In this document: piece by piece, positions 43,601-46,846 of the stretch | How positions within the stretch are numbered: position 1 is the stretch's first letter | How the letters are laid out: every line of letters begins with the position of its first letter | NCBI RefSeq assembly: GCF_916619195.1 | Contig: NZ_CAKAKL010000001.1 | Location: forward strand, 620,001-684,000 | Reading direction: 5' to 3' | Length of the DNA: 64,000 bases | Origin: Inquilinus sp. Marseille-Q2685 | GTDB taxonomy: Bacteria > Pseudomonadota > Alphaproteobacteria > DSM-16000 > Inquilinaceae | Notes under the pieces: model-generated | Databases searched by the model: none | The model's input: the letters and a program-made list of their open reading frames with translations, nothing else | What the model was told of the DNA's origin: nothing | Made by a program: the position numbers and the translations under genes

Positions 43601-43636
43601 CTCCTGCTTGGATGCACGCCGCACGCCAAGCAGGAG
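43601..43636 (+). promoter_or_regulatory. hairpin sequestering the Shine-Dalgarno site of the P460 gene
   Basis: CTCCTGCTTGG (43601-43611) is perfectly complementary to CCAAGCAGGAG (43626-43636) across a 14-nt loop. The 3' arm contains the AGGAG ribosome-binding site, seven bases before the ATG at 43644. In RNA the stem would hide the site, so translation may be controlled. Confidence 0.6.
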
Positions 43637-43643
43637 TCCCTTG

Positions 43644-44153
43644 ATGAAGCCCGCCCGCATCGCCCTGTTCGGGGCCGTCCTCGCCTCCTCCGTCGTCGCC
43701 GCGGCCGCCCTGGCCGCGCCGGGCCGCGGCGCTGACAATGCCTCGCCGATCTACGGGGTCACCATCCCCGAGGGCTACCGGCAGTGGCCGTTCATCGCGC
43801 CGGCGCATGAGACCGACCCGCTGAACGAGCTGCGCGTCGTGGTCGGCAACCCCACGGCGGTCAAGGCCTACCAGGACGGCACCCTGCCCTTCCCCGACGG
43901 CACCATCCTGGTCAAGCTGGCCTGGAAGCACGTCCAGTCCACCGAGTTCGCACCCGCCTATGTCCCCGGCGCGGCGACGACGGTGCAGGTCATGGTCAAG
44001 GATTCGAAGCGCTACGCCGCCACCGGCGGCTGGGGCTTCGGCCGCTTCATCGACGGCAAGCCGGTCGACCAGGCCCAGCACGAGACCTGCTGGGCCTGCC
44101 ACCAGGCCAATGTGAAGGACCATGACTACGTCTTCACGCGATTTGCTCCCTGA
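43644..44153 (+). CDS. cytochrome P460 family protein
   Basis: A 169-aa exported heme protein. Signal peptide is residues 1-24; the P460 fold follows with GVTIPEGYRQWPFIAPA, and the single CxxCH is CWACHQAN (about residues 150-157). Cytochromes P460 have an unusual Lys-crosslinked heme and oxidise hydroxylamine; many members, as here, are in non-nitrifiers and have an unknown role. ATG at 43644 has AGGAG seven bases upstream. Its 3' end overlaps the convergent lyase-like gene by 20 bp. Confidence 0.87.
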   Translation: MKPARIALFGAVLASSVVAAAALAAPGRGADNASPIYGVTIPEGYRQWPFIAPAHETDPLNELRVVVGNPTAVKAYQDGTLPFPDGTILVKLAWKHVQSTEFAPAYVPGAATTVQVMVKDSKRYAATGGWGFGRFIDGKPVDQAQHETCWACHQANVKDHDYVFTRFAP

Positions 44154-45642
44154 AGACGGATTCCAGCTCGCCCGAAGCGATGAGGCCGGCCGCCGCCGCG
44201 ATGTCCGGCGCGGCCGGGCGGTCGGCCTCCAGCCGCGGCACCAGGCCGCGCACGGCCGCGTGGATCGCCGCCGTGCCCCGGCCGAGCGTCGGGGCGCCCC
44301 GCAGGTCGACCGCCTGGGCCGCCACGATCAGCTCCAGCGCCGCCAGCAGACGCAGCCGTTCGACGATCCCCGCCGTCTTGTCGACGGTCGCGGTCGCCAT
44401 GGTGGCGTAGTCCTCGACCCCGTCGGCGACCGGCAGCACCGCGACCGGCATTGGGGCCGCCAGGTGGCCGATCTCAGCCAGGAGCGCCGCGGCGGTCTTC
44501 TGCGCCGGGCCGTAGCCGGCGCTGCCGTCCTGCACCGGCGCCAGGAAGCGCGGCAGGCCGCTGGCGGCCGGGGACATCAGCTTGACGACCCGCGCCGCCG
44601 AGATCGCCGCTGCCCGCGCCAGCGCTGCCCCCAGCGCCTCGAAGGCCAGGGCCAGATGGGTCGGGTCGAAATTGGCGTTCGGCAGGGCGACGCCGTCCTC
44701 GGCGATCACCGCCGGGTTGTCCCCGGCCCCTGCCAGCTCCAGCTCGACCGAAGCCCGCGCCGCCTGTACCGCGGCCAGGGCGGCGCCCAGCACCGAGGGC
44801 GCGCAGCGGAAGCTGAGCGGGTCCTGCAGCTTCCTCGCCGCGCCCGGCCGCGCCAGATCGCCGCCCTGCAGCAGTGCGAGCATCGCCCGCGCCGCCTCCG
44901 CCTGCCCCGGCGCCGGCCGCAGCAAAGCGGCGCGCGGGTCCAACGGTGCGACGCCGGCGCGGAAGCCCTCGAAGGACAGCGCGGCGGCGGCGAGCATCGC
45001 CCGCAGCGCCTGCGCCGCGTCCTCGACCACCAGCGCGCCGGCGCCGACCGAGGCGGCGTTGGCCGAGACCAGGGCCAGCCCGTCCTTCAGGCCGAAGGCC
45101 GGCTGCGCGATGCCGGCGCGAGCCAGCGCCTCGGCCGCCGGCAGGATCTCGCCCTGCAGCTCGGCCTCGCCCTGGCCCAGCAGCACGAGGGCGATGTGCG
45201 ACAGCGGCGGCAGGTCGGATTCGCCGACCGAGCCCGTCATTGGCACCACCGGGTGCACGCCCCAGTTCAGCAGGGCCGCCAGCGCCTCGGCCACGGCGCG
45301 CGACGCTCCCGATCGGCCGGCGCAGAGCCCCGCCAGCCGGGCTGCGACGATCGCCCGCACCTGGTCTCGCCGCGCGTCCCGCCCCACACCGACGGCGCGG
45401 CCGATCGGGATCCGGCGCTGCACCACCGCGGCGTCCGGCGCGATCCTTGTGTCGACGGCAGCGCCCAGCCCGGTGCTGACGCCGTAGATCGCGGTCCCGG
45501 CGGCGGCAAGCGCCTCCAGGGCGCGGTGGCCGGCCTCGATCCGCTGCAGGGCGGCGGCGTCGAGCTCGACGGCCGCGCTTTCCCGGGCGATGGCGAGGAT
45601 GTCGCGGGTGGAGAGCGGGCCGGCGCCGAGGCGGATCGTCAT
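44134..45642 (-). CDS. histidine/phenylalanine ammonia-lyase homologue lacking the MIO triad
   Basis: A 502-aa protein with HAL/PAL family architecture. Conserved are the Tyr of AIYGVSTGLG, QDPLSFRCAP containing the equivalent of the HAL catalytic Arg, and GVEDYATMAT. However, the MIO-forming site reads GSVGESDLPPLSH (residues 137-149) instead of GSVGASGDLAPLAH: the cyclising Ala-Ser-Gly (A142-S143-G144 in P. putida HAL) is absent, and the GLALxNGTQ region is replaced by GLALVSANAAS. Classical lyase activity is therefore unlikely. ATG overlaps the stop of the cyclodeaminase-family gene (ATGA). Confidence 0.8.
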   Translation of the reverse strand: MTIRLGAGPLSTRDILAIARESAAVELDAAALQRIEAGHRALEALAAAGTAIYGVSTGLGAAVDTRIAPDAAVVQRRIPIGRAVGVGRDARRDQVRAIVAARLAGLCAGRSGASRAVAEALAALLNWGVHPVVPMTGSVGESDLPPLSHIALVLLGQGEAELQGEILPAAEALARAGIAQPAFGLKDGLALVSANAASVGAGALVVEDAAQALRAMLAAAALSFEGFRAGVAPLDPRAALLRPAPGQAEAARAMLALLQGGDLARPGAARKLQDPLSFRCAPSVLGAALAAVQAARASVELELAGAGDNPAVIAEDGVALPNANFDPTHLALAFEALGAALARAAAISAARVVKLMSPAASGLPRFLAPVQDGSAGYGPAQKTAAALLAEIGHLAAPMPVAVLPVADGVEDYATMATATVDKTAGIVERLRLLAALELIVAAQAVDLRGAPTLGRGTAAIHAAVRGLVPRLEADRPAAPDIAAAAGLIASGELESVFREQIA

Positions 45643-46643
45643 GCGAAGCGCAGCCGCTGGCCGATCTCCAGCCGCTTCGCCTTCTCCAGCATGGCGTGGC
45701 CAAGGGCGATGTCGCTGAGGCTGAGGCCGCGGTGCCACAGGAGGATGGTCTCGTCCTCGCGCTCCCGGCCCGGCTTCAGCCCGGCGACGACCTGGCCCAG
45801 CTCCGCATGCAGCGTCGCCTCGGAGAGCTTGCCGGCCTCGACATGGGCGCGCAGGGAGCCGAACTGGCCGCTGCGGCACTGACCCCAATCGTCGACCACC
45901 ATCTTGGCCATGATGTCGGTCAGCGACAGCTCGACCGCGCTCATCGTGCCGTAGGGCACCACCAGCGCGCCGGGCTTGATCCACTCGGTCCGCAGCAGCG
46001 GCTCGGGCTGCAGCAGGCGCGAGGCCTCGACCACGATGTCGGCGCCGCGCACGGTCGACTCCCAGTCCGCCATGGCGCGGACCGGCTTGCCGAGGTCCCG
46101 CGTCAGCCGCTCGGCGAAGCCCTCGCGGCTTTCCGGCCGGCGGGAATGGACGCGGATCTCGTCGAAGTCGAACAGCCTGTCCAGCAGCCGGACGTTCCAA
46201 TAGGCGGTGCCGCGCGCGCCGACATGGCCGAGCACGCGGCTGCCCTTGCGGGCCAGGTGCCTGGCGCCAATCGCGGTTACCGCCCCGGTGCGCATGTCGG
46301 TGATGGCGGTCGCGTCCAGGATCGCCTTCGGCATGCCGGTCGCCGGGTCGAACAGGTTCAGGATCGCCATCTCCGACGGCAGGCCGCGCTTGTAGTTGTC
46401 GACATAGTCGCCGACCACCTTGACCCCGGCGGCGTTGACCGGCGCGCCGATGGCGCCGCGCAGCACGTTGAAATGGCCGTGCACCTGCGGGTCGGGCTTG
46501 AGGTGGACCCGCGGCTCGATCACGGTCTCGCCACGGCCCTGCGCCGCCAGGCTGGTCTCGATCGCCTGCAGGATCTCGTCGTCGGTGATCGCCAGCGCCT
46601 CGATGTCGAGGCCGTTGAGGAAAGTCACGTAGATCGGGTGCAT
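45639..46643 (-). CDS. ornithine cyclodeaminase / mu-crystallin family protein
   Basis: A 334-aa NAD(P)-binding protein. The N-terminal dimerisation part includes GVKVVGDYVDNYKRGLPSEMAILNLFDPATGMP and DMRTGAVTAIGARHLA, typical of the family. The Rossmann motif is atypical (VLGHVGARGTAYWNVRLL), and the segment holding the catalytic Asp in ornithine cyclodeaminase is replaced by VVPYGTMSAVEL. It is likely a dehydrogenase, imine reductase or cyclodeaminase of another substrate. It precedes and overlaps the lyase-like gene. Confidence 0.82.
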   Translation of the reverse strand: MHPIYVTFLNGLDIEALAITDDEILQAIETSLAAQGRGETVIEPRVHLKPDPQVHGHFNVLRGAIGAPVNAAGVKVVGDYVDNYKRGLPSEMAILNLFDPATGMPKAILDATAITDMRTGAVTAIGARHLARKGSRVLGHVGARGTAYWNVRLLDRLFDFDEIRVHSRRPESREGFAERLTRDLGKPVRAMADWESTVRGADIVVEASRLLQPEPLLRTEWIKPGALVVPYGTMSAVELSLTDIMAKMVVDDWGQCRSGQFGSLRAHVEAGKLSEATLHAELGQVVAGLKPGREREDETILLWHRGLSLSDIALGHAMLEKAKRLEIGQRLRFA

Positions 46644-46705
46644 GTCGGCTCCAGCGGTGTGGGAGGTGCGCTCCCGCAGGCAAGGTCTCTTTCAAACCTC
46701 TTCAC

Positions 46706-46793
46706 CGTCATTGCGAGGAGGCGAAGCCGACGAAGCAATCCAGGGGCCGGTGCGCACCGGCCCCTGGATTGCTTCGCTGCGCTCGCAATGACG
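46706..46793. repeat. palindromic repeat with 46-bp perfect core
   Basis: The element begins CGTCATTGCGAG and ends CTCGCAATGACG. Its core 46731-46776 is a perfect palindrome (arms starting CGAAGCAATCCAGGGG). Similar intergenic repeats are common in Rhizobiales and Rhodospirillales. It lies between two minus-strand genes. Confidence 0.85.
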
Positions 46794-46846
46794 TAAAGGA
46801 TGAGCACGAAGAGGTCTCATCGGCGAGCGTGGCGTTGTCGCGGCCT

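Follow-up and report, generated by a model that had tools for sequence, protein, structure and literature searches.

An MIO-free aromatic-amino-acid-lyase homologue of Inquilinus predicted to be a trimethylamine lyase

The Ala-Ser-Gly (ASG) triad is described in a passage of PMC3903478 as strictly conserved in MIO enzymes, and replacement of its Ser by Ala in histidine ammonia-lyase (HAL) or PAL is given there as lowering activity >1000-fold. One member of the family, ergothionase, works without MIO; according to an excerpt of PMC13405746, which cites Maurer 2019, it frees trimethylamine from ergothioneine and is held by Treponema denticola, Burkholderia, Cupriavidus, and Agrobacterium radiobacter. 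Part of a second source, PMC8364193, counts ergothionase among the C-N lyases that release trimethylamine. Furthermore, a study of an ergothioneine sulfonate catabolic pathway (Yan, Huang and Zhang 2022, ACS Catal. 12:4825) is cited under A. radiobacter in the same excerpt of PMC13405746. An earlier, sequence-only reading of the locus described below had drawn attention to the loss of MIO but had overlooked ergothionase; because this MIO-free family member is already known and solved, absence of MIO alone is not new.

The window analyzed here is the whole stretch of 64,000 nucleotides from Inquilinus sp. Marseille-Q2685 (contig NZ_CAKAKL010000001.1, positions 620,001 to 684,000). Its relevant features, in window coordinates, are as follows:

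44134..45642, minus strand: MIO-free aromatic-amino-acid-lyase homologue of 502 aa, a predicted quaternary-ammonium (trimethylamine) lyase
45196..45234, minus strand: shortened MIO loop GSVGESDLPPLSH, codons 137-149, from the alignment and the reading of relatives
45397..45399, minus strand: Arg82 codon; His at the same site in HAL and in ergothionase 6s7j
44497..44499, minus strand: Lys382 codon (QKT); ergothionase 6s7j likewise has Lys here, and HAL has Val
44413..44415, minus strand: Glu410 codon; aligns with the Glu of HAL QED and of ergothionase IED, invariant in 81 rows
45639..46643, minus strand: ornithine cyclodeaminase/mu-crystallin family protein (OCD), PF02423, 334 aa, the upstream gene of the two-gene unit
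45639..45642, minus strand: ATGA in which the stop of OCD overlaps the start of the lyase, from the sequence

The lyase reading frame runs without interruption from an ATG at 45642 to a stop codon at 44134-44136. A cytochrome P460-domain protein (PF16694) is encoded convergently with it on the plus strand at 43608-44153. Membership of the lyase in its superfamily was indicated by a Pfam match to PF00221 of 426.7 bits over residues 10-465 (gathering score, 27.3), and the score for NCBIfam hutH (TIGR01225) was 349.8 bits, under the curated cut-off of 539.15. The AlphaFold2 model, for which the input was the window protein plus 23 locus sequences, had a mean pLDDT of 91.5 and a pTM of 0.92. The top PDB match was ergothionase 6s7j (E value, 4.2e-72), followed by HAL at 2.8e-66. 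We take 6s7j and 6s7q to be the T. denticola ergothionase (ergothioneine trimethylamine-lyase) of Maurer 2019.

The sequence-only reading had described residues 137-149 as GSVGESDLPPLSH, with ASG replaced and the loop one residue shorter, and the reading frame and the alignments bear this out. The later replacement of NGTQ by VSANAAS is likewise present in the sequence, as are the residues said to be retained, namely, the family Tyr (Tyr53), the Arg of QDPLSFRC (Arg279), and the ED of GVEDYATMAT (residues 410 and 411). The loop has one residue less than that of HAL, GSVGASGDLAPLAH, and the comparison with family structures which that reading had proposed, made here with the Pseudomonas HAL chains and 6s7j, places the single-residue gap within the MIO triad. 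A candidate identity as an ordinary HutH was excluded by the loss of the triad together with the hutH score under the curated cut-off.

A contig scan for relatives found 113, of which 80 loci were kept, from Inquilinus, Pseudomonas, Rhizobium, Bosea, Labrys, Salinicola, Azospirillum, and other genera; with the window these make up 81 rows, in which close relatives were left unthinned. ASG was absent from all 81 rows, and the loop was one residue short throughout. The window reads GE-S-D at this site, and its 88% relative, encoded by a different genome of the genus, has GEADL there. Position 142 was Ser in 24 rows, Ala in 56, and Asp in 1, and position 141 was Glu in 37, Ala in 42, and Met in 2, while Tyr53, Gly140, Asp143, Asn195, Gln273, Arg279, Phe325, Glu410, and Asp411 were invariant in 81/81 rows. 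Since Ser142 varies while Gly140 and Asp143 do not, the Ser appears not to be retained as an MIO precursor. Judged from the alignment, a loop with drifting Ser and Glu combined with invariant active-site residues is the pattern of an enzyme working without MIO. In HAL, the residue equivalent to Glu410 faces the imidazole, and in ergothionase the Lys and Glu of the QKT and IED sites and the family Tyr are essential. The position of Lys382 was occupied by Lys in 60 rows and by Arg in 21. Position 82, where HAL has His83 (HAL numbering), was Arg in 79 of the 81 rows and His in the other 2.

A quick tree of 58 rows, with loop columns removed, rows thinned at 82% identity, and the root not known, contained a HAL group of 11 rows (10 ASG and 1 ACG; support, 100), an ergothionase-type group of 8 (support, 83), and an Arg82-type group of 39 that included the window (support, 98). 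In this tree of unknown root, the 47 MIO-free rows lay jointly on one side of a branch with support of 100, and 6s7j and the window lyase fell into different subgroups. Five long-branch rows (L007_6799, L033, L098_2084, L006_6538, and L134_8016) were left out of the 58. In a tree that included them, thinned in the same way, all MIO-free rows except L007_6799 and L098_2084 again held together, with support of 91. The lyases of the actinobacterial loci L121 and L122 have His at position 82 and group with ergothionase, and OCD was not found at either locus, L122 being only 4 kb long. An ergothionase-type lyase labeled hutH was seen on Sinorhizobium meliloti pSymA (L125:8917-15734), near an ABC transporter and a gene annotated as dimethylsulfoniopropionate lyase.

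The ATGA overlap between OCD and the lyase makes translational coupling of the two genes likely. Upstream of OCD, at window positions 46690-46800, lies a long palindrome, GCAATCCAGGGGCCGG...CCGGCCCCTGGATTGC, with flanking repeats, which by eye resembles a repetitive extragenic element. The OCD protein matched 13 NCBIfam families, none of which reached its curated cut-off, and it represents its own subfamily, 60-96% identical across the linked loci. PF02423 is common to OCD and to archaeal alanine dehydrogenase (AlaDH), pyrroline-2-carboxylate reductase, and iminosuccinate reductase. Lys75 and Arg118 of AlaDH are retained; however, the Y-D-x-R of AlaDH 1omo is an invariant H-S-x-R in the 86 OCD rows, with Ser167 in place of the AlaDH Asp after the second strand, and many additional Arg and His residues are invariant in these rows. 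Ser instead of Asp at this point of the fold suggests NADPH, and Ser167 in H-S-x-R thus suggests that OCD may use it.

Orthologues of OCD with 60-80% identity occurred in 84 plasmid records, and an orthologue was found in 27 of the 385 genomes of the window's class. A strong match to the window lyase was present in 12 of the 385; 11 of these matches had the short loop (the window and 10 others), and 1, in G101, was an ordinary ASG HAL. OCD was present in all 11 genomes with a short-loop lyase, a co-occurrence with a hypergeometric probability of 3e-13 for the 10 nonwindow genomes when phylogeny is ignored. Only three of these 10 (G120, G363, and G367) had the two genes ≤7 kb apart. At the threshold used, a short-loop lyase was not found in 16 of the 27 OCD genomes; the single PF00221 match in each of the OCD genomes G071, G192, G287, and G382 was an ASG HAL, and G214 had no match. 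OCD adjoined an ordinary ASG HutH at two loci on plasmids; at one of these, the OCD match was partial and unannotated. No common theme was recognized in OCD neighborhoods without a short-loop lyase. The idea that OCD is a strict partner of the lyase is ruled out by the 16 genomes just mentioned. OCD must therefore serve some other use too, perhaps acting apart from the lyase on a substrate imported from outside. In the literature searched, no assignment of reductive desulfonation of an aromatic ring to the OCD/mu-crystallin family was found, OCD and ergothioneine were mentioned together in a single paper, once each, and the term “urocanate-2-sulfonate” was not encountered. The ergothioneine sulfonate study may name a urocanate-2-sulfonate reductase, to which no weight was given as evidence.

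Neighboring genes, identified from Pfam and the record annotation, were counted at 73 clade loci spanning 13 kb or more, which are mostly from Rhizobium and Pseudomonas and hence not independent, and at 20 HAL-type control loci (15 reading ASG, 3 reading ACG, and 2 matching no pattern), two of which were short, at 7.9 and 8.3 kb. OCD was present at 66 of the 73 clade loci and missing from 7, and it was found at none of the 20 controls. The same absence from all 20 controls applied to an OpuAC betaine-binding protein of either type (51/73 clade loci), a PhnD-like protein (45/73), MaoC (21/73), a CoA transferase (19/73), and an NMT1/SsuA-like protein (18/73). The YeiH exporter, at 13/73 clade loci versus 0/20 controls, did not reach significance (Fisher, 0.06). 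SDR genes were found at 22/73 clade and 3/20 control loci. A HutC-like regulator was not commoner in the clade (20/73 versus 10/20), HutI occurred at 1/73 versus 8/20, and HutU within 6 kb was found at 0/73 full clade loci versus 10/20 controls. Of the two kinds of OpuAC, one was confined to Pseudomonas loci and the other to non-Pseudomonas loci. CoA-transferase and MaoC matches were absent from the Pseudomonas and Bosea clade loci, and neither gene was found near the window lyase.

OCD and the lyase lay on the same strand at 65 of 84 loci, with OCD immediately before the lyase in 26 of those 65. Five plasmid loci bear no annotation, and one of them (Cupriavidus, L128) was OCD positive with no lyase within 7 kb. 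Genes of the hut pathway accompanied the lyase or OCD in several lineages: in Salinicola, hutI adjoins the lyase at two loci, joined by hutU and hutF at one; in Paraburkholderia, the gene order is OCD-hutU-lyase; in Paracoccus, hutU, hutI, hutG, hutH, and a formimidoylglutamate deiminase gene occur with OCD, YeiH, and an MIO-free lyase; in G101, OCD adjoins hutU; and in Comamonadaceae OTU4NAUVB1, hut genes adjoin the lyase or OCD. The window genome itself holds the genes that later parts of the proposed path would require, none adjoining the lyase: hutU (L006), hutI, eight OpuAC matches, and a single YeiH gene, which shares the contig of the lyase but lies some 33 kb away, beyond the window. 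In the 88% relative (L038), the lyase and OCD stand side by side as in the window, and another genome of the genus (L040/L112) carries the complete cluster of the Rhizobium type, its lyase being a 48% relative; the two forms within one genus suggest that the cluster has been exchanged between lineages.

YeiH was present, with a flanking LysR gene, at Rhizobium (pRL12, strain 3841) and Polaromonas loci as well as in Paracoccus. We take CuyZ to be a member of the PSE family. In passages of three sources, YeiH is treated as a PSE-family protein that is a candidate for sulfite export and has a LysR gene alongside (PMC11582611), a PSE member is a sulfate exporter in organosulfur breakdown (PMC5373536), and cuyZ is listed as a sulfite exporter beside cysteate sulfo-lyase (PMC4334477).

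The OpuAC transporters indicate a betaine substrate, the hut genes near the lyase or OCD together with the invariant Glu410 indicate an imidazole, and YeiH with its LysR gene indicates oxidized sulfur; combined, these signs make ergothioneine-2-sulfonate a plausible substrate, from which two steps would lead to urocanate. The explanation that we favor overall, with moderate confidence, is that the protein is a HAL-fold trimethylamine-lyase that acts on ergothioneine or, more probably, on its 2-sulfonate, with desulfonation by OCD as a possible next step. Its components are not equally secure. The protein is very probably a catalytic MIO-free lyase and probably a trimethylamine-lyase acting on a betaine. 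The balance leans toward a substrate of the ergothioneine type, the 2-sulfonate specifically is a plausible but somewhat doubtful candidate, and the assignment of desulfonation to OCD is tentative.

In the proposed mechanism, a HAL-fold enzyme would have given up MIO, which would be dispensable because the group to be expelled is a quaternary ammonium from the outset. As reported for ergothionase, the window lyase would deprotonate the beta carbon of an imidazole amino acid trimethylated at N-alpha and expel trimethylamine, so that an imidazole acrylate remains. Given Arg82 in place of His and the partner genes, the lyase may convert ergothioneine-2-sulfonate to urocanate-2-sulfonate. OCD, which its family marks as an NAD(P)H imine reductase, might then transfer a hydride to imidazole C2, with sulfite leaving; this more speculative step is in keeping with the imine-reductase family, and the resulting urocanate would enter the hut pathway. 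The overlapping gene pair could, quite tentatively, be a minimal two-step module from ergothioneine-2-sulfonate to urocanate, carried by many bacteria associated with plants, soil, and mushrooms, in which the Arg of the lyase would read the sulfonate and OCD would be an NADPH-dependent reductive desulfonase. Counting against this reading are the lack of a nearby HutU at all 73 full loci, the weak enrichment of YeiH, HutC-like regulators no more frequent than in controls, the seven clade loci lacking OCD, the OCD genomes in which no short-loop lyase was found, the OCD genes next to an ordinary HutH, and the small share (3 of 10) of other genomes in which the two genes lie close together.

A plain ergothionase, which would convert ergothioneine to thiourocanate and leave OCD to a different or later step, is a rather unlikely alternative. 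It accords with the identity of the nearest solved chain, with the Lys and Glu at matching sites, and with the 16 of 27 OCD genomes in which no short-loop lyase was found, but the His of ergothionase is replaced by Arg in 79/81 rows, the ergothionase-type and Arg82-type lyases form separate tree groups, and the exporter and reductase neighbors suggest oxidized sulfur. Somewhat less probable again is a lyase for another betaine, such as hercynine or a nonimidazole amino-acid betaine, with the acrylate passing through a CoA transferase, a MaoC hydratase, and an SDR. The CoA-transferase, MaoC, and SDR genes at 19 to 22 of the full loci would fit CoA-dependent degradation of the acrylate rather than urocanase, and the betaine transporters also fit such a substrate; however, CoA transferase and MaoC are missing at the Pseudomonas and Bosea loci and from the surroundings of the window lyase, several loci adjoin hut genes, and Glu410, whose HAL counterpart faces the imidazole, is invariant.

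The sequence-only reading had noted the missing MIO-forming triad and had concluded that the enzyme either catalyzes another reaction or is a binding or regulatory homologue. MIO is indeed not to be expected from this loop and another reaction is likely, while the binding or regulatory role found no support. Such a catalytically dead homologue would explain the missing triad but is very improbable: Tyr53, Asp143, Gln273, Arg279, Phe325, and Glu410 are invariant in the 81 rows, position 382 is always Lys or Arg, and transport genes are linked to the lyase, with betaine-uptake genes at 51/73 loci. Moreover, the MIO-free relative 6s7j has been solved and, in an excerpt of PMC13405746, is reported to be active. 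Nothing was found in favor of a degenerate gene or of a sequencing error that hides ASG. The loop has the same length in 80/80 relatives, the frame is intact and full length, and the active site is kept, so this explanation was excluded as having a negligible probability.

Several other variants of the family came to light. The window genome encodes, on contig C4 (L007:6577-8097), an MIO-lacking PF00221 homologue, with relatives, that has the loop GQGGAGE and the motif QAPVSYR and neighbors what by eye is an ATP-grasp gene; its match to the Pfam model breaks in two around the MIO region, and similar splits occurred in 11 of 26 genomes, the loop having been read only in G137 (NGGAGE). A third MIO-lacking paralogue, on contig C14 of the window genome (L006:6538-7872), reads GSSIGASDIVAMSQ and has no Lys at the QKT site; it lies within the hut locus, where hutU and a HutC-like gene are its neighbors and the canonical ASG hutH is some 3 kb away. 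The 2.7-Mb genome G101 has 52 PF00221 stretches, a large expansion. HAL homologues with Ala-Cys-Gly for Ala-Ser-Gly were seen at L160, L161, and L162 and also at L014 and L016, the last two having RDGLSLRC where HAL has QDPYSLRC. In Salinicola corii (L098:2084-3427), a HAL-like protein adjoining hutI reads GSVGYLTHMAH and has apparently lost the MIO triad separately.

Among the 40 plasmid records listed, 19 label the branch gene histidine ammonia-lyase or hutH, and the other 21 are mostly unannotated. As a result of these labels, pathway predictions assign a histidine lyase that the genes are unlikely to be. If the favored explanation is true, a sequence test that asks for the short loop, Arg82, and OCD within one genome would pick out those bacteria of soil, roots, and mushrooms that degrade ergothioneine derivatives with release of trimethylamine. 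It would also show a route by which an MIO enzyme drops its cofactor, given a good enough leaving group, and would mean that bacteria recycle nitrogen, carbon, and sulfur from a spent fungal antioxidant.

Compared with known systems, the window lyase shares with HAL HutH (1gkm) the family, Tyr53, the Arg of QDPxSxRC, and the Glu of ED. It differs from HAL in lacking ASG and MIO, in having Arg for His83 and Leu for the Tyr of QDPYSLRC, and in having Lys382 for Val. The likeness to ergothionase 6s7j is more extensive and takes in PF00221, the ASG-less loop one residue shorter, VSxNA, QDPLSFRC, ANF, QKT, ED, and GE-x-D; in addition, the ergothionase Lys and Glu at QKT and IED and the family Tyr are matched by Lys382, Glu410, and Tyr53, with Arg replacing the Lys in 21/81 rows. 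The two proteins are nevertheless only about 32% identical, and the window branch is set apart by the OCD partner, by a separate tree group, and by Arg82, where ergothionase has His. The ergothioneine sulfonate catabolic pathway of Yan, Huang and Zhang (2022) resembles the present proposal by its title alone, which matches the proposed substrate, and a window-type cluster is carried by Rhizobium rhizogenes OV677 (L074). From these sequence comparisons, the Arg82 branch with its OCD partner is probably a distinct variant, separate from both ergothionase and HAL and mislabeled in current records.
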